The translations under genes and the position numbers were made by a program. The notes under the pieces were generated by a model. It had not been told where the DNA came from. It ran no database searches and worked only from the letters and a program-made list of their open reading frames with translations. A stretch of 41,243 bases of DNA from Dehalococcoidia bacterium. GTDB lineage: Bacteria; Chloroflexota; Dehalococcoidia; GIF9; AB-539-J10. This document shows positions 1,999 to 41,243 of the stretch, piece after piece. The stretch covers positions 1-41,243 of the forward strand of contig PUON01000158.1 in NCBI GenBank assembly GCA_003552125.1, in the 5' to 3' direction. Position 1 is the first letter of the stretch. The number at the start of each line of letters is the position of its first letter.

Positions 1999-2220
1999 TT
2001 ACCTGTCCGGCACTTCGACTGTCTTATGTCGCCCTGACACTCCAGAGATGAGCCGCACGTCGCCTGGAGCGACCCTGAAATACTCCGCAACGGCACGAAG
2101 CACGGCTGCATTCGCCCTGCCCTCGCGCGGAGGTTCCTTTACACGCACGACAAGGTGATTCTCAACGGGTTCAATACCGGGCACCTTCGAGTTCGGCTTC
2201 ACATCGACCCGTATCCTCAT
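1999..2220 (-). CDS. DUF167/YggU-family protein
   Basis: Short ORF with RIRVDVKPNSK...VRVKEPPREGRANAAVLRAVAEYF...ISGVSGRHKTVEV, typical of DUF167. Confidence 0.85.
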   Translation of the reverse strand: MRIRVDVKPNSKVPGIEPVENHLVVRVKEPPREGRANAAVLRAVAEYFRVAPGDVRLISGVSGRHKTVEVPDR

Positions 2221-3502
2221 CGACCCTCCTGACCCACAGGCCCTCTACCGAAGAGCACACAATCGTGGCCCTCTCCAGCTTATTGTGCAGATTCAACCGG
2301 CCGCGACACAAGACCCTCAGGTAGTTATCGGTCGTTCCTTCCCAAACGCCGCTTCCCGGAAATGTCTCGCCCTCCCACACCACTGACACGTCATGACCAA
2401 GCCACGAGCGTATATACGCTCTCCTGCATTCTTCACCCACGTACTCCATCTGTCTGCCTCGCTGCCTTATTAAGAGGGGCGAAACCTGGTCGGACATGTG
2501 CGCTGCCCTGGTTCCCGGTCGGCTGGAGTACGGAAATACATGCATTCGCGCAAAGCCAATATCCTCGCAGCGCCTGACCGTCACTTCAAACTCCTGGTCG
2601 GTCTCTCCGGGGAAGCCGACGATCACATCTGTTGTAATCGCAGCCCCGGGAACTCTGGCCCGTATCCTCGTTACGGCGTCGAGGTACGTCTCAACAGAAT
2701 AGCCTCGTCCCATGCGCTCAAGTACGGTATCGCTGCCGCTCTGCAAAGACAGGTGGAAGTGACGACACATTCGGCTATCTTCCCACAGGCTAAGTAACTC
2801 CTCAGATAGCTCCTGCGGCTGCAGAGATGAGAGGCGCAACTGCACGTTGCCTGACATGGCGAGCACGCTGCGAACGAGTCGAAGAAGACCAGTATTACCG
2901 TCACGGTACGCACCGATCCTGGTGCCGGTCAGGACGATTTCCTTGCTGCCGCTCACCACACGGTCGCGCACAGTATCAAGGACCTGTTCCGCGGGCACCG
3001 ACACCTCGCGACCGCGCACGAGAGGCACGACGCAGTACGCGCATGGAGTCTCACAGCCCTCCTGTACCTTCACCAGGCTCCGGGTCCGTCCTAGATTCCG
3101 TGATGCCGGATCCCTAGCAGACAACGTATTCAGCGACATGACGCCGCGCTCACGGAGTGCCTCCGCAACGCGGGTCACCATGTAGGCCTTCTCCCGGTTA
3201 TGGATCAACACGTCAGCGAGCGGCTGGAGCATATTCCGCGCGCGTTCTGCGCCGCAGCCTGCCGCCACCACGAGACTGTCGGGGTTCCTGCGACGCACCG
3301 ACCGCAGCCATTGCCTGGCCTTGCGGTCTGCCTCGGACGTAACGGTACACGTGTTAATGACGAAGACATCAGCAGGTTCACGAGGGCCCACCACCATGAA
3401 CCCCGCGGCGGCGAAGGCACCAGCCATCTCCTGCTGTTCAGCCTGATTCAGTTTGCAGCCCAGGGAGTGAAGTGCAATCCGAGCATTACCGTGATCATTC
3501 AC
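2171..3502 (-). CDS. mtaB: tRNA threonylcarbamoyladenosine methylthiotransferase MtaB (radical SAM)
   Basis: N-terminal LGCKLNQAE...NTCTVTSEADRKARQ, radical SAM CETPCAYCVVPLVRG, MiaB/MtaB C-terminal architecture. Confidence 0.9.
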   Translation of the reverse strand: MNDHGNARIALHSLGCKLNQAEQQEMAGAFAAAGFMVVGPREPADVFVINTCTVTSEADRKARQWLRSVRRRNPDSLVVAAGCGAERARNMLQPLADVLIHNREKAYMVTRVAEALRERGVMSLNTLSARDPASRNLGRTRSLVKVQEGCETPCAYCVVPLVRGREVSVPAEQVLDTVRDRVVSGSKEIVLTGTRIGAYRDGNTGLLRLVRSVLAMSGNVQLRLSSLQPQELSEELLSLWEDSRMCRHFHLSLQSGSDTVLERMGRGYSVETYLDAVTRIRARVPGAAITTDVIVGFPGETDQEFEVTVRRCEDIGFARMHVFPYSSRPGTRAAHMSDQVSPLLIRQRGRQMEYVGEECRRAYIRSWLGHDVSVVWEGETFPGSGVWEGTTDNYLRVLCRGRLNLHNKLERATIVCSSVEGLWVRRVDEDTGRCEAELEGARY

Positions 3503-20666: not shown

Positions 20667-21098
20667 ATGGAATATAAGCTGACGTTCAAGGAGTACAACA
20701 AGTCACTTAAGAAGGGGAAACTCCTCGGGCTCAAGTGCAACGACTGCGGCAACTACACATGTCCACCCAAGATGGCCTGTCAGGAATGCGGATCGACGAA
20801 TATGGATGTCGAGCAGTTGAAGGGTAGCGGCAAGGTAGTCACTTTCACCGTATCGTTCGTGCCCGCGGAGGGCAGGGACGCGGAGGTGCCCTACACCGTA
20901 GTTATGGTCGAACTCGACGAAGGTCCGTGGCTTCTCGGAAACCTTACCGATATCGATCCCAACAAGGTTACCGTGGACCTCATCGGCAAGCCCGTGCAGC
21001 TCGGTTCCAAGATGAAGGCATTGCCTGGCGATGTCTACATGATGGGTGATAAGGAGGCGGAGGGGGCATTTGCCAGACCAACGTTCGTGTTCGCCTAA
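20667..21098 (+). CDS. Zn-ribbon OB-fold (DUF35) protein, thiolase partner
   Basis: LKCNDCGNYTCPPKMACQECGSTNM followed by an OB-fold; directly downstream of the thiolase. Confidence 0.88.
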   Translation: MEYKLTFKEYNKSLKKGKLLGLKCNDCGNYTCPPKMACQECGSTNMDVEQLKGSGKVVTFTVSFVPAEGRDAEVPYTVVMVELDEGPWLLGNLTDIDPNKVTVDLIGKPVQLGSKMKALPGDVYMMGDKEAEGAFARPTFVFA

Positions 21099-22674
21099 GG
21101 AACCGACCGGGCATTCTCCTTCCCCCGCAACTGAAGAACTGGCAGGGGCACTGAGGTCAACGGAGGCGTACCCGCACCAACCGGGTGCTATCGATTTCAC
21201 TCAGACCCAGATGTCCCTGCTCTTCCTTGCGGACGATCTCGTCTACAAAGTCAAGAAGCCGGTCAACCTCGGCTATGTGGACTACTCGACATTCGAAGCG
21301 AGACGCCGGTACTGTGAACACGAGGTCCAGCTCAACCGTCGGCTGTGTCCCAGCGCCTACCTTGGCGTCGTGCCGATCACACGCGAACCCAACGGACGGC
21401 TGCGCGTCGAGGGAGAGGGACAGGTCGTAGAGCACGCAGTGAAGATGCGGCGACTGCCGCAGGAACGGATGCTGGACCACCTGCTGCGTGAGGGTCATGT
21501 CACCGGTGCGATGATGGAGGCCATCGCCGCACGCCTGGCCTCGTTTCACTGTGAGGCGGCTACGTCGCCGGAGATATCTGCATTCGGGACCATCGAAGCT
21601 ATTCGTTTCAACACGGATGAGAACTTCGAACAGACGCTGCCCAACATCGGAACCACAGTTCGGCAATCAGATCATTCCCTGTTGCGCGACCATACGAACG
21701 ACTTCCTCCAGTCTCACGCTGCATTGCTGCAGCGACGAGTGGAGCGGAATCGAATCCGCGACTGCCACGGAGATCTGCATGCAGCTCACGTGTGTATGAC
21801 GGATGACATCTGCATCTACGACTGCATAGAGTTCAATGACCGGTTCAGATACGGGGACATTGCCTCGGAAATAGCGTTTCTCGCAATGGATCTCGACCGA
21901 TACCGGAGACGCGATCTGTCCGATACGTTTTCGAACGCATATGCCAGGATCTCCGCAGACGGCGAGATAGCGGAGTTGATGTCATTCTATAAATGCTACC
22001 GCGCGGTGATACGTGGCAAGGTGGAGGGTTTCAAGCTGGGTGACTCTATGATCCCTGAAGAGGATAGAAATCGGGCCAAGTGGCTCGCGCGTACGTACTT
22101 CGAACTGGCACGCAGCTACATCAGGGGCAAAGGACTCCTCGTCATCATGTCCGGCCTAACGGCCTCAGGGAAGAGCACGGTGGCCGATGGACTCGGCCAA
22201 CTGCTCGCCGGCACGGTGATATCGTCGGATGTCGTACGTAAGGAACTGGCAGGACTCCCAATCGATACCCACCGGTATGAATCATTCGGTGAGGGTATCT
22301 ACTCGCCCGAATGGACGCGGCGCACGTACGACGAGATGCTGCGCCGGTCAAAGCAGGTGCTCGCCTCGGGAGGTCATGCTATCCTTGATGCATCGTTCCT
22401 CAGATCACACCAACGCACACGGGCGATCAAGATGGCGCGGCAAATGGGAGTCAGGGCAGTTCTTATCGAATGCGATGCACCCTACGAGGTGCTGGCACAG
22501 CGACTTCTCGACAGGCCGGCTGAGGAAACCATCTCAGACGCGAGACCGGAGATTCTTGAGGCACAAATCTCAAGCCGCGAGGAAGTTGCCGAATTCTCGG
22601 ACGACGATCACATCCGTATCGACGCAACACAGGACAGCGAAACCATCCTGGAGGGATTATGGACCGGACTCTAG
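21046..22674 (+). CDS. Fusion of aminoglycoside-phosphotransferase-like kinase domain and AAA/P-loop kinase domain
   Basis: RIRDCHGDLHAAHVC and YDCIEFNDRFRYGDIASEIAFLAMDLD (APH-like), then VIMSGLTASGKSTVADGLGQLL (Walker A). Start uncertain: GTG 21046 or TTG 21070. Confidence 0.8.
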   Translation: MIRRRRGHLPDQRSCSPKEPTGHSPSPATEELAGALRSTEAYPHQPGAIDFTQTQMSLLFLADDLVYKVKKPVNLGYVDYSTFEARRRYCEHEVQLNRRLCPSAYLGVVPITREPNGRLRVEGEGQVVEHAVKMRRLPQERMLDHLLREGHVTGAMMEAIAARLASFHCEAATSPEISAFGTIEAIRFNTDENFEQTLPNIGTTVRQSDHSLLRDHTNDFLQSHAALLQRRVERNRIRDCHGDLHAAHVCMTDDICIYDCIEFNDRFRYGDIASEIAFLAMDLDRYRRRDLSDTFSNAYARISADGEIAELMSFYKCYRAVIRGKVEGFKLGDSMIPEEDRNRAKWLARTYFELARSYIRGKGLLVIMSGLTASGKSTVADGLGQLLAGTVISSDVVRKELAGLPIDTHRYESFGEGIYSPEWTRRTYDEMLRRSKQVLASGGHAILDASFLRSHQRTRAIKMARQMGVRAVLIECDAPYEVLAQRLLDRPAEETISDARPEILEAQISSREEVAEFSDDDHIRIDATQDSETILEGLWTGL

Positions 22675-35758: not shown

Positions 35759-36420
35759 GTCTGCGAGCGGGATTCTCCAATTTCCTCGCCGTCAAGCAGC
35801 GCCGCCAGGTCCAGCAGGCTATGAAGGCAATTATTCCCCGCACCGGATCTGTCAAGGTAGAGCGCCCTGATTCCTGCAGCAGAGGAACTGAGGTAATCGT
35901 GATCCCAGCTGTCTCCTACGTGCAGGACCTCGGCGGGCTCCGCACATAGCTCCCGGCACATCCATCGAAAGAACTCCTCGTCTTTCACCCTGCCAAGAGA
36001 GGAGGTTGCGGAGAAGTACCGTTCGATCCTCCCTTCCACATCCCGCAGCAGGGGCCTGAGAAACTCGAACGGCGTGGACGAGGCAACTACCAGGCGGTAC
36101 CTGCCGCACAAGGCGTCCAGCACAGGCCTCGATTCCGGGTAGAACTCAATCAGGGACCGATACGCCTCTATCACGGGTGCCGACTCACCCAGGCCAAGTC
36201 TGCGGAACCAATAGTCGATGTCGTACCACTCTTTCCTGTTCGGGCCGATGCAGTGATATTGCGAGAATACCTGGCTGGCGGCCTGTTCGAACGGTATCCC
36301 GTGCTTCTGCCCGTACATCCGCGGCACCACCTCCTGCCAGACCGTGCGCGAGAACGCATGACTCGCGAGCGTACCCTCCGCGTCGAAAGAGATCACCTTT
36401 ATCTGCTCCAGTCCTTCAAC
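35755..36420 (-). CDS. HAD-superfamily hydrolase
   Basis: VISFDAEGTLASHAFS (motif I), RLVVASSTPFEFL (motif II), KDEEFFRWM...VLHVGDSWDHDYLSSSAAGIRALYLDR (motifs III-IV). Start uncertain. Confidence 0.85.
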   Translation of the reverse strand, partial: VEGLEQIKVISFDAEGTLASHAFSRTVWQEVVPRMYGQKHGIPFEQAASQVFSQYHCIGPNRKEWYDIDYWFRRLGLGESAPVIEAYRSLIEFYPESRPVLDALCGRYRLVVASSTPFEFLRPLLRDVEGRIERYFSATSSLGRVKDEEFFRWMCRELCAEPAEVLHVGDSWDHDYLSSSAAGIRALYLDRSGAGNNCLHSLLDLAALLDGEEIGESRSQT

Positions 36421-36483
36421 CATAGGGTTCACATCGTACCACACGACAGTCGTGAGTCCGCGGATTTGTCATCGCCGCACGTC

Positions 36484-37665
36484 ATGGCTACAATCTTACG
36501 AATGCAACAGGAAACTGATACTCATGAACGCTACTCGGGCTTCGAGCTCGGACCCATTCGTCCGCCGAGCGAGGCGTACTCGCTGCTGATCCGCGCCACC
36601 AGGAACTGCCCCTGGAACAAGTGCCTGTTCTGTCACCTGTACAAGGACACGGAATTCTCGCTCCGGTCAGTTGAGGATATCGAACGTGACATCGATGCCG
36701 CGGCTGCAGTGCGCGACCACATAGTTGAGGCGTCCCACAAGCTGGGCTACGGCGGCAATGTACAGCTCACCGCAGCAGCCCTGCTGAGCCAGCCGTACGA
36801 CGATGCCTGCATGCGTAACGTCGCTCTGTTCCTCTATGGCGGAGGCGAGTCCGTTTTCCTCCAGGACTCCAACACGCTGATCATGAAGACACCGGATCTC
36901 GTCCGAATCCTGCTCCACCTGCGCGAGGCATTCCCCAATCTCTCAAGGGTGACCACCTACAGCCGGTCGCACACCGCAGCACGCAAGACGCTCGACGAAC
37001 TGAAGCAGATCCGCGAGGCAGGCCTGGTGCGCATTCACATGGGACTCGAGACCGGCTACGATACCCTGCTTGACTACATGCAGAAAGGCGCCACCTCCGA
37101 GCAGCAGATATCCGCCGGACAGAAGCTCAATGAGGCGGGTTTCTCATTGTGTGAATACATCATGCCGGGCCTCGGCGGAAAGGAAATGGCCGAGGGTCAC
37201 GTACGGGAGACCACGCGCGTGCTCAACGCAGTCAATCCCGGGTTCATCCGCCTGCGCAGCCTCCATGTCTCGCCCACAATGCCACTTTGGTCGCGCGTCC
37301 AGGATGGCACTTTCCCGCTGCAAAGCGAGGATGACGTGGTCAGGGAGATCAGGGATATGATTGCGGGACTGGAGGTGACGAGCGAGATCAAGAGCGACCA
37401 CATCGTCAACCTGCTGATGGAAGTCGAAGGCAGGTTTCCTGATGACAAAGAGAGACTACTGGCCATCATCCAGCGGTACCTGGACATGCCGGACGAGGAG
37501 AGATTGAACTTTCAACTGGGGAGGCGCATGGGTCTCTACCAGGCTCTTGCCGACATGACCGAAGAGGGCAGACACCAGCGGGTTGCCGAGACCATCAGCC
37601 GCATTCGCGAACGCGGCGATGACGTCGAAGAGGTCATCCGCAGGCTCAAGGACCGCTTCATCTAA
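36484..37665 (+). CDS. Radical SAM protein
   Basis: RATRNCPWNKCLFCHLYKDTEFSLRSVEDIERDI (CxxxCxxC), LIMKTPDLVRIL, RIHMGLETGYDTLLDYMQKG. Confidence 0.88.
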   Translation: MATILRMQQETDTHERYSGFELGPIRPPSEAYSLLIRATRNCPWNKCLFCHLYKDTEFSLRSVEDIERDIDAAAAVRDHIVEASHKLGYGGNVQLTAAALLSQPYDDACMRNVALFLYGGGESVFLQDSNTLIMKTPDLVRILLHLREAFPNLSRVTTYSRSHTAARKTLDELKQIREAGLVRIHMGLETGYDTLLDYMQKGATSEQQISAGQKLNEAGFSLCEYIMPGLGGKEMAEGHVRETTRVLNAVNPGFIRLRSLHVSPTMPLWSRVQDGTFPLQSEDDVVREIRDMIAGLEVTSEIKSDHIVNLLMEVEGRFPDDKERLLAIIQRYLDMPDEERLNFQLGRRMGLYQALADMTEEGRHQRVAETISRIRERGDDVEEVIRRLKDRFI

Positions 37666-39044
37666 TACGAGGGCTCCGCGAGCGGCTTCACCATGTACGG
37701 CCCCTGGCGCTCATAGCCAAGCTGCCGGTAGTAACCTCGTGCACCAACTCCGCTCAGTACCCGCAGTCGGTCGGCTCCATACTCCGCCACCGCGATCCTC
37801 TCTGCCTCCCTCAGCAGGCTGGCTCCAAGACCCCGATGCTGCGCCGCTGAATCATCGCGCTTGCCCAGCGCAACCTCGGGGCCGTATACGTGCAACTCGC
37901 GCACCGTCGCCATTGGCGCAGTACTTCCTTCGGTTTCCGGCCCGCCAATGGACAGTCGAAGCAGCGCGTACAGAGTCCCCTGCTTGTCCTCATACGAAAG
38001 AAGAACCTCGTCCCCATCGGCCGTCTCGTAACTCAGCCGCCTGAGCACCGGTTGACCGATGACCCAGCCGTCACGCCTGCGATGTCCATACTCCCGGCAC
38101 CGCACACACTGGCATCCTGCCTCAAGCTGTCTCATGCGTTCCCTGACCGTGCTCCGCAACGCCAGGTCATCGCATCCGGCCACTATGAACTTCCGTGGAA
38201 TGTCACGCATCAGACGGGCAATCCGCACGTACGGCGGCACCAGCATCTTCATCCGCGCCAGCAAATCCGTCATCTCCTCGATAGTGCAGGGGTTGAAGCG
38301 TCCCTCGTCATACCATTCCTCCAGCTTCGATCCCTGCACAACGACTGTCGGATACAGCTTCAGTCCATCGGGTCGGAACCGAGGATCGTCGAACAGTCGG
38401 CGCGTCATTTCAAGGTCGTGTCCTGCTGACGAGCCCGGGAGACCGGGCATCCAGTGGTAGTACACCTTGAAACCGTTCCGACGTAATCGCGATGTCGCCT
38501 CGATGATCTCCGCAACGCCATGACCGCGTTGCATCAGCTGGTGAACACTGTCATCCAGTGTCTGCACCCCCAGCTCAACACGCGTCGCCCCGAACTCAAG
38601 CAGCCGCGCCACCTCTTCGTCGCCACAGACGTCTGGGCGCGTCTCCACACAGAGCGCCACGCAACGATGCCGTGCAGTCTCGTTGAGCCTTGTGGCCTCA
38701 TCGAGATCGGCAGACTCCACTTCGTTCAGCGCGTCATAGCACGACTTCACGAACCAGTACTGGTAGTCGACCGGATACGACAGAAAGGTACCACCCATGA
38801 CCAGCAGCTCAACCTTATCCACCGGATGCCCCATGCTTTCCAGAGAGCGGAGCCGCAGCCTCACCTGCTCATAGGGATCGAAATCGCTCCGGATGGCGCG
38901 CAGCACGACGGGTGATTCCTCCGTGTAGCTCTTCGGCGCGACATCAGACGTCGGACAATAGACGCACTGCCCCGGACACGGGTGGGGCCTCGTCATGACG
39001 GCGACGGGCGTCACGCCCGATATGGTTCGCGTAGCCTTCCTCAT
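37662..39044 (-). CDS. Bacterial Elp3: tRNA uridine-34 carboxymethyl-modifying radical SAM / GNAT enzyme
   Basis: TRPHPCPGQCVYCPTSDVAPKSYT, LLVMGGTFLSYPVDYQYWFVKSCYDALN, ALCVETRPDVC, RVELGVQTLDD; C-terminal GNAT segment QHRGLGASLLREAERIA...LSGVGARGYYRQLGYERQGPYMVK. Confidence 0.92.
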   Translation of the reverse strand: MRKATRTISGVTPVAVMTRPHPCPGQCVYCPTSDVAPKSYTEESPVVLRAIRSDFDPYEQVRLRLRSLESMGHPVDKVELLVMGGTFLSYPVDYQYWFVKSCYDALNEVESADLDEATRLNETARHRCVALCVETRPDVCGDEEVARLLEFGATRVELGVQTLDDSVHQLMQRGHGVAEIIEATSRLRRNGFKVYYHWMPGLPGSSAGHDLEMTRRLFDDPRFRPDGLKLYPTVVVQGSKLEEWYDEGRFNPCTIEEMTDLLARMKMLVPPYVRIARLMRDIPRKFIVAGCDDLALRSTVRERMRQLEAGCQCVRCREYGHRRRDGWVIGQPVLRRLSYETADGDEVLLSYEDKQGTLYALLRLSIGGPETEGSTAPMATVRELHVYGPEVALGKRDDSAAQHRGLGASLLREAERIAVAEYGADRLRVLSGVGARGYYRQLGYERQGPYMVKPLAEPSY

Positions 39045-39073
39045 GGTAGGCTTGAGTCTAACAGGAGCCCATC

Positions 39074-39730
39074 ATGGGAACAAACCGCGAAGTGTTCGAT
39101 CGCATGGCGCCGACCTGGTACGGGGTCAGGCACTGGCCGCTGCTGCGCCACGAGCTCGACCTGATGGCTCGCCGGTGGAAGAGTGGCAGACTGGTGAACC
39201 TCGGCTGCGGTCACGGGGCGGATTTCCTGCCGTTTCGCTCTGGGTTCGAACTGGTGGGCCTCGACCATTCACAGGGCATGCTGCGGCAGTCGCGCAGATA
39301 TATGGTGAAGCATGGCTTCGATGCCTCTCTCGTCTGCGGTGACCTGTGCCAGCTTCCTTTGGCCGATCGCTCGTTCGATCACGCGATAGCCATCGCCAGC
39401 TATCACCACATCGAAAGCGCAGAAGCCCGCCAGCAGGCCTTCCATGAACTGCATCGAGTGCTTCGGCCGGGAGGAGAGGCATTTATCAGCGTATGGAACC
39501 ACGACCAGCCCAGGTTCCGTGATGCTCCTCCGGATCAGTGGGTCCCGTGGAGGAATGGAGACCGCACGCTCCTCCGCTTCTACCATCTGTTTACAATGGA
39601 AGAACTGGCCTCCGCCCTGCACCAGTCGGGATTCACCATCCAGCAGATCGGCCCCGGCGCTTCACGTGGCGACGTGTCGAGAGAAGACGCTCGCAACATC
39701 TGCGCACTCGCGCGGAATCCAGAACGGTGA
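39074..39730 (+). CDS. Class I SAM-dependent methyltransferase, Trm9/ALKBH8-MT-like
   Basis: FDRMAPTWYGVRHWPLLRH, LVNLGCGHGADFL, FDHAIAIASYHHI, GGEAFISVWNHDQPRF...DQWVPWRNGDRTLLRFYHLFTMEELASALHQSGF. Confidence 0.78.
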   Translation: MGTNREVFDRMAPTWYGVRHWPLLRHELDLMARRWKSGRLVNLGCGHGADFLPFRSGFELVGLDHSQGMLRQSRRYMVKHGFDASLVCGDLCQLPLADRSFDHAIAIASYHHIESAEARQQAFHELHRVLRPGGEAFISVWNHDQPRFRDAPPDQWVPWRNGDRTLLRFYHLFTMEELASALHQSGFTIQQIGPGASRGDVSREDARNICALARNPER

Positions 39731-39738
39731 ATTCGGTG

Positions 39739-41243
39739 TCAGACGTTCTCAAACGGAGGCACGTGACTGACCCTGTCCTTGCGCGGCAGTCCTGCCTCAA
39801 CCTCACGCACGAACACTTGCACCAGGTCAGGATCGAACTGCGTGCCGGCTGCCTCCTTCAGCTTCTCCAGTACCACTTCATCTACAAGCGCCTCGCGGTA
39901 CGGCCGTGCCGATGCCATCGCCGCAAATGCATCGGCGATGGCGAGGATTCGCGCGCCAATGGGAATGCTCTTACCCCTCAAACCCTCGGGATACCCGCTG
40001 CCATCCCACTTCTCATGGTGATAAAGGATGCTGCCCACGCAGGGAGACAGGTCATGCACATTGCCTACTATGTTCGCGCCCAGACGCGGGTGCGACATGA
40101 TGGACTCCCATTCCTCCTCATCAAGCTCGCCCTTCTTGTTCAGTATGCGGTCGGGAACCCCTATCTTGCCGATATCGTGCAGCAGTGCTGAAGTGCTGAT
40201 GCGGGACACTTCATCAGACGGCAGCCCCAGCGCCTCCGCCAGCACGACGGCGAAGACATTGACTTTGCGCGAGTGACCGTACGTGTAGTGATCCTTTGCG
40301 TCCACCGCCGCCGCCAGCGCATACACCGCACTCAGGCCACTGCCGCGATGATTGTTCTTGGCTTCAACGCCCGCCTCCGCCTCCGCAAATATCTTCGATG
40401 AGATGTAGGTCCGATTGCCGCCGGTGTTCTTCGCGTAGTAAAGCGCCGTATCCGCCGTGGCGATGAGCTCGCCTGCCATTACCCCATCGGTGGGATAGCT
40501 GGCCAGGCCGATGCTGCAGGTCACGCCACTGTGCCGCGACTCCATCTCCTTCGCTACCAGCAATCTGACCCGCTCAGCCACCACGAATGCCTCATCAGGC
40601 AATGTATCCGGCAGTATGATCGCTATCTCATCACCACCGTAGCGAAACGCCTGGTCAGATTCGCGTATCGTGTGAGATACCAGCTCAGCTACAAGTTTGA
40701 GCAGCACATCGCCGGACGGATGTCCGTACATGTCGTTGTAAGCCTTGAACGCATCAAGGTCCCCCATGAGCACTGCGAACACCGCATCGTGACGGGCGTG
40801 ACGTGCAACCTCCTCCCGCAACCGTTCTTCAAAGTGCCTCCGGTTAAAGAGTCCGGTGAGCTCATCGATGCGGCTTCGCTGCTCCGCCCTCGCGTAAAGC
40901 CTCAGATTCTCCAGCGGAGCGGCGATCTGCGACGCGACCTGTTCCAGCAGCTTGACGTCCTCCTCGTGGTACCGCTGCGGCGCGCAACTGGCCACCAGCA
41001 GCGTCCCCACCACCTGGTCACGCACGATGAGAGGAGAGTGAACGAGCGACCGTATGCCCTCCCTTGCGTAGTGCACATCCGGCCAGTACGTCACAGTAGC
41101 CTGCAGGTCCGGCTGGTAGACCGACTTCCGATGTTCCATCACCCACTCGGTTGCGGTTCCCCGGACGGAATGTGACATCCGGGCCATCTGGACGGCATCC
41201 ACTTCGCCAAACACCGCCTCCAGTTTCACCTTATCGCCGTCAA
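39739..41243 (-). CDS. GAF-GGDEF-HD-GYP multidomain signalling protein (5' end truncated by window)
   Basis: GAF-like N-terminal region; RIDELTGLFNRRHFEERL...FRYGGDEIAIILPDT (GGDEF); HDIGKIGVPDRILNKKGEL...HHEKWDGSGYPEGLRG (HD-GYP). Frame stays open to the window edge. Confidence 0.9.
   Translation of the reverse strand, partial: DGDKVKLEAVFGEVDAVQMARMSHSVRGTATEWVMEHRKSVYQPDLQATVTYWPDVHYAREGIRSLVHSPLIVRDQVVGTLLVASCAPQRYHEEDVKLLEQVASQIAAPLENLRLYARAEQRSRIDELTGLFNRRHFEERLREEVARHARHDAVFAVLMGDLDAFKAYNDMYGHPSGDVLLKLVAELVSHTIRESDQAFRYGGDEIAIILPDTLPDEAFVVAERVRLLVAKEMESRHSGVTCSIGLASYPTDGVMAGELIATADTALYYAKNTGGNRTYISSKIFAEAEAGVEAKNNHRGSGLSAVYALAAAVDAKDHYTYGHSRKVNVFAVVLAEALGLPSDEVSRISTSALLHDIGKIGVPDRILNKKGELDEEEWESIMSHPRLGANIVGNVHDLSPCVGSILYHHEKWDGSGYPEGLRGKSIPIGARILAIADAFAAMASARPYREALVDEVVLEKLKEAAGTQFDPDLVQVFVREVEAGLPRKDRVSHVPPFENV

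Follow-up and report, generated by a model that had tools for sequence, protein, structure and literature searches.

A divergent gene pair encoding Elp3 and a Trm9-like methyltransferase in Dehalococcoidia as a candidate bacterial route to mcm5U34

The window considered here, a stretch of 41,243 nucleotides from a Dehalococcoidia bacterium (contig PUON01000158.1), contains two genes transcribed away from each other, one encoding Elp3 and the other an S-adenosylmethionine (SAM)-dependent methyltransferase (Table 1). This divergent arrangement with a very short spacer was described in an earlier note made from the sequence alone; both open reading frames lie where it placed them, and all five methyltransferase motifs that it quoted were found in the frame. 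The start codons are upheld by relatives, as Elp3 of the window can be aligned from residue 1 with Elp3 of D. mccartyi (PDB 5l7j) and the N-terminus of the methyltransferase is common to its orthologues. In 73 loci taken from the best 80 of 182, the two genes lie between 29 bp and about 3 kb apart, with a median of 106 bp. No sigma-70-like promoter sites were found in the spacer of the window, and the suggestion that the pair shares a promoter is neither supported nor refuted by the data.

Table 1. Features of the elp3–methyltransferase locus, numbered from the first nucleotide of the window
Feature	Position	Strand	Description
elp3	37662..39044	-	460 aa (stop codon included), ATG start; radical SAM/GNAT tRNA U34 carboxymethyl transferase
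Divergent spacer between both start codons	39045..39073	.	29 bp, read from sequence
Trm9-like SAM methyltransferase gene	39074..39730	+	218 aa (stop codon included), ATG; predicted cm5U34 carboxyl methyltransferase

The product of elp3 reaches 559.7 bits with the TIGR01211 model (curated cut-off 350), and it is the one gene in the window's genome to exceed this cut-off. Pfam assigns to it the domains Radical_SAM, Radical_SAM_C, and Acetyltransf_1, the radical SAM and GNAT parts spanning its whole length, and the three-cysteine iron-sulphur motif CPGQCVYC (residues 23–30) is aligned with that of 5l7j. The match to 5l7j covers the full length of the protein (E 2.5e-178). The D. mccartyi protein is an orthologue of Elp3 of the window, and a locus encoding a protein identical to it over residues 1–293 has the same divergent methyltransferase. 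In the accessible sections of the papers on D. mccartyi Elp3, no neighbouring methyltransferase is described (PMC6367351, PMC7663514).

For the methyltransferase, Pfam and NCBIfam searches gave only generic class I methyltransferase matches. None of the NCBIfam equivalogs reached its cut-off, the best one (DVU1556) scoring 49.1 bits versus 155 and the demethylmenaquinone methyltransferase (UbiE/MenG) model 39.3 bits versus 327; with every curated score far under its cut-off, the identity of a UbiE or another small-molecule methyltransferase was rejected. When a class-wide profile, made of 22 orthologues from across Dehalococcoidia, was compared with all PDB sequences, Yarrowia Trm9 (5cm2_Z) ranked first (E 7.9e-22). 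The order-level profile placed Trm9 second, 0.7 bits behind 1ve3, a protein of unknown function. With both profiles 1ve3 aligns over the core only, and the Trm9 alignment extends through the C-terminal VPW...RYYHLF. By fold, too, the AF2 model of the methyltransferase (pLDDT 87.6) has Trm9 5cm2_Z as its best PDB match (E 1.8e-15). Numerous class I methyltransferases come close behind in this ranking, so the fold rank by itself is weak evidence; the model also contains a two-stranded element (strands 154–161 and 164–171) where the lid of Trm9 sits. In the reverse search with Trm9 of Y. lipolytica, the family of the window protein was the best match in the pair-bearing genomes of the class, with E of about 1e-10 to 1e-18 (1.6e-8 for one truncated gene copy). 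These matches reach the C-terminal lid, and most paralogues match at about 1e-4 or more weakly, mostly over the core. The phage records searched with Trm9 gave no match.

The residues of the substrate site allow a more specific comparison. It was shown for yeast Trm9 that the substitutions R29A, H115A, R241A, Y243A, and N271A lead to a loss of tRNA affinity and activity, and that R29, H115, R241, and Y243 affect tRNA affinity and kcat (PMC5372719). When the window protein was aligned without guidance to Trm9 of Yarrowia and to a homologue from haloarchaea, its R19, H111, R168, and Y170 came to stand in the columns of the Arg, His, Arg, and Tyr that both of these carry and that correspond to yeast R29, H115, R241, and Y243, the yeast numbers being assigned by motif and not from the yeast sequence. 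Within the family these four residues are invariant or nearly so, and among the paralogues from the sampled genomes the set was not found as a whole. An asparagine, N208, is also invariant and directly precedes the last strand, like DNWW of 5cm2, but it aligns with yeast N271 only if a loop insertion of 8–10 residues is assumed. As judged from the alignment, four of the five residues required in yeast Trm9 for tRNA binding and activity are conserved in the family. Taken with the PDB matches of the class-wide profile and of the fold and with the reciprocal search, this bears out the view of the earlier note that the methyltransferase is closer to Trm9/ALKBH8 than to UbiE. A maximum-likelihood tree that included Trm9 of Yarrowia, a single haloarchaeal homologue, and paralogues did not place the family with Trm9, and in the AU test a constrained clade of the family and Trm9 was neither rejected nor supported (p about 0.2). 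Two trees were made, the second leaving out short paralogue fragments present in the first, and both are poorly resolved owing to long branches.

The association of the two genes was studied in named loci and in whole genomes. Among the best 80 of 182 loci, seven lacked elp3, and three of them were set aside as uninformative because the methyltransferase starts less than 320 bp from the contig end; the divergent pair is thus present in 73 of 77 informative loci. The genome sample comprised 251 Chloroflexota, many of them incomplete metagenome-assembled genomes, including 33 Dehalococcoidia. Of these 33, 23 carry the methyltransferase and Elp3 genes together, in each case adjacent and divergent, and the remaining 10 have neither (p 1e-8, a value that is only indicative, as the genomes are related by descent and not independent). 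The linkage is kept in relatives, and with such retention it is not a matter of chance. Plain synteny was likewise ruled out: at the lowest sequence identities, among the loci listed, Elp3 still adjoins the methyltransferase in 15/15 loci, whereas the other neighbours of the window disappear with distance (radical SAM 0/13, HAD 0/13, GGDEF-HD 1/16). In one genus (g5) both genes are present in the genome and unlinked. As to these neighbours in the window, a radical SAM protein gene (36397–37665) is convergent with elp3, the stop codons of both overlapping; no NCBIfam equivalog fits it, the best (PhpK-like) being far under its cut-off, and its synteny is retained in closer relatives only. A gene for a GAF-GGDEF-HD signalling protein (39739–41241), convergent with the methyltransferase gene and 3' of it, is also kept in nearer relatives only.

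The distribution of the usual bacterial pathway is informative as well. Bacterial MnmE/MnmG (with MnmC) occupy the same niche, i.e., the C5 modification of wobble U34 accompanied by thiolation by MnmA, although the enzymes are unrelated to the Elp3 pair. Elp3 was found in 48 and MnmG in 101 of the 251 genomes, and no genome has both, against 19.3 expected (p 5e-13, again only indicative because of common descent). This mutual exclusion, for which MnmG was the marker searched, suggests that MnmE/MnmG is replaced by the Elp3–methyltransferase pair. In about 100 of the 251 genomes both Elp3 and MnmG are missing, and incomplete assemblies may explain some of them. MnmA is present in 23/23 pair-bearing genomes of the class, from which mcm5s2U34 is predicted where MnmA acts.

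Eukaryotic Trm9 needs Trm112 as a partner. The genome of the window encodes a Trm112 of archaeal type of 60 aa (L031, frame ending at 1674 on the plus strand; G000:C4:2529-2705). Its gene lies beside folate-biosynthesis-like open reading frames, away from elp3. The six further members of its family and order that were sampled from the phylum all have a Trm112 of this type, of about 60 aa. No convincing Trm112 was found in the complete pair-bearing genomes of Dehalococcoides type (family f5, in which genus g31 was recognised by the identity of its Elp3 to that of D. mccartyi and the rest by relatedness), nor in the pair-bearing genomes G118, G203, and G310. It was considered that a weak Pfam model hides the protein, but a rerun with a class-specific profile gave nothing convincing, and the residual weak matches lie inside longer or interrupted frames. 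Trm112 was also dropped as a marker of the pair, as it occurs in 10/23 genomes with the pair and in 7/10 without it (p 0.26). The genome search for a Trm112-like protein proposed in the earlier note thus succeeded in the genome of the window, but several lineages that keep the pair have no detectable one. In these lineages the methyltransferase may be either autonomous or served by a partner that is not recognised.

It is proposed that Elp3 would convert the wobble uridine (U34) of tRNAs to cm5U, and that the Trm9-like enzyme would then methylate the carboxyl group of cm5U with SAM, yielding mcm5U34. Where the bacterial thiolase MnmA acts as well, mcm5s2U34 would be expected in the tRNAs for Lys, Glu, and Gln. 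The 60-aa Trm112 might activate the methyltransferase in the organism of the window; that of Dehalococcoides and of some other lineages would act without a recognisable Trm112. Although the substrate, the product, the use of a partner, and the set of tRNAs are predicted from sequence, we consider it probable that Elp3 and the Trm9-like enzyme make mcm5U34, or mcm5s2U34 with MnmA, in place of MnmE/MnmG. The two-gene route from cm5U to mcm5U suggested in the earlier note is largely supported as far as the pair is concerned, but the genome also has Trm112 and MnmA, so the route need not consist of two genes and its product may be mcm5s2U.

Other explanations were weighed against this one. That a generic small-molecule, UbiE-like methyltransferase came to lie next to elp3 by accident could be argued from the generic Pfam and NCBIfam matches and from 1ve3, which scores nearly as high over the core fold. 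However, the equivalog scores far under cut-off, the presence of the C-terminal Trm9 motifs, a linkage that outlives every other tested neighbour, and a co-occurrence that is perfect in the class sample had already disfavoured this explanation and make it highly improbable. A subtler possibility is that the enzyme serves the Elp3 pathway with no esterification of cm5U, its target being a U34 intermediate that arises later or by another branch, or else a different nucleotide in the same anticodon loop. Linkage and co-occurrence point to a shared process and are silent on the chemistry, the counterpart of yeast N271 is uncertain, and the C-terminal segment differs from that of Trm9. Nevertheless, the retention of the Arg, His, Arg, and Tyr which position the substrate in yeast Trm9, together with the element modelled in the lid position, renders a different substrate unlikely.

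The third matter of debate is whether the methyltransferase is an obligate Trm9–Trm112 holoenzyme, part of a three-gene unit, with the Trm112-less lineages using a diverged or replacement activator. The archaeal-type Trm112 of the window's genome and of six relatives is consistent with such a unit. On the other hand, nothing convincing was found in the complete Dehalococcoides-type genomes and the three others named above, and Trm112 does not track the pair. An obligate holoenzyme is possible, yet we lean against it.

Outside the class, the association reappears in another form. Searches with Trm9 against 25 Elp3-bearing Chloroflexota genomes outside Dehalococcoidia gave weak matches, many of them adjoining Elp3, and in 20 of the 25 a second, distinct methyltransferase family is divergent from elp3 (loci L195–L213 and L219). 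The second family aligns with the first at an hhalign probability of 99.7, and in its PDB profile search Trm9 was the second-best match. Its motifs are ATR/SATR, HH (LHHIP), LLDW, and RY (LRYxH); it has no equivalent of Tyr243 and no clear equivalent of Asn271. Two diverged bacterial families thus show a functional link of a Trm9-like methyltransferase with Elp3. If we consider these data together, a wider proposal can be formulated, namely a bacterial mcm5s2U34 pathway of Chloroflexota that consists of Elp3, a Trm9-like enzyme (in some lineages without Trm112), and MnmA, that has displaced MnmEG, and that includes two highly diverged lineages of Elp3-linked methyltransferases; for this combination the arguments seem to us about evenly balanced. 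If it is true, wobble mcm5 chemistry would be an established bacterial trait and not a eukaryal/archaeal signature.

The methyltransferase domain of eukaryotic Trm9 and ALKBH8 resembles the window protein in its class I fold with lid strands, in the Arg/His/Arg/Tyr site, as its top PDB match, and in its predicted action downstream of Elp3. The window family differs from it in being bacterial, in its shorter lid region, in that Trm112 is not universal, and in that its gene is transcribed divergently from elp3. Also similar are the archaeal Elp3–Trm9 systems of Sulfolobus and Haloferax, in which Elp3 also acts without Elp1/2/4–6 (PMC2584109, PMC5372719); in S. solfataricus the Trm9 homologue is clustered with Elp3 (PMC2584109), and the haloarchaeal homologue aligns with the window methyltransferase at the key residues. 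Here, in contrast, the host is bacterial, bacterial MnmA is present and MnmG absent, and the identity to the haloarchaeal homologue is about 32%. The clustering of archaeal Elp3 and Trm9 was already known, and the occurrence of mcm5s2U in archaea had been proposed (PMC2584109, PMC5372719). For bacteria, genes similar to the methyltransferase partners of Trm112 were not detected according to a review of 2017 (PMC5372719), and according to a 2020 review cm5U derivatives lack direct evidence in bacteria with Elp3 such as Dehalococcoides (PMC7663514). Our literature searches found no bacterial Trm9 beside Elp3; the 2016 paper on D. mccartyi Elp3 and the 2018 paper on Trm112 evolution were outside their scope, and these may mention it. 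The pair is probably a new, bacterial version of the known Elp3–Trm9 pathway and is probably interpreted correctly, the less expected parts being Trm112 independence and the second family.

So far mcm5U has been regarded as a eukaryotic and archaeal modification, and MnmE/MnmG is the usual bacterial route. For D. mccartyi, the source of the crystallised Elp3, the pair supplies a candidate second enzyme, hitherto missing, together with a predicted product, and it suggests how such bacteria cope without MnmG. It could also provide small single-polypeptide models for the chemistry of Elongator and Trm9, as well as natural test cases for Trm112 independence.

Two further genes of the window may be mentioned. 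One (2174–3502) encodes a MiaB/MtaB-like methylthiotransferase (UPF0004 and radical SAM domains) and may be a further gene for tRNA modification. In the product of the other (21046–22671), an aminoglycoside-phosphotransferase-like domain is fused to an AAA_33 kinase domain. The latter also gives a weak Pfam match (E 2.9e-6) to KTI12, which regulates Elongator in yeast, but this match probably reflects a generic P-loop kinase.
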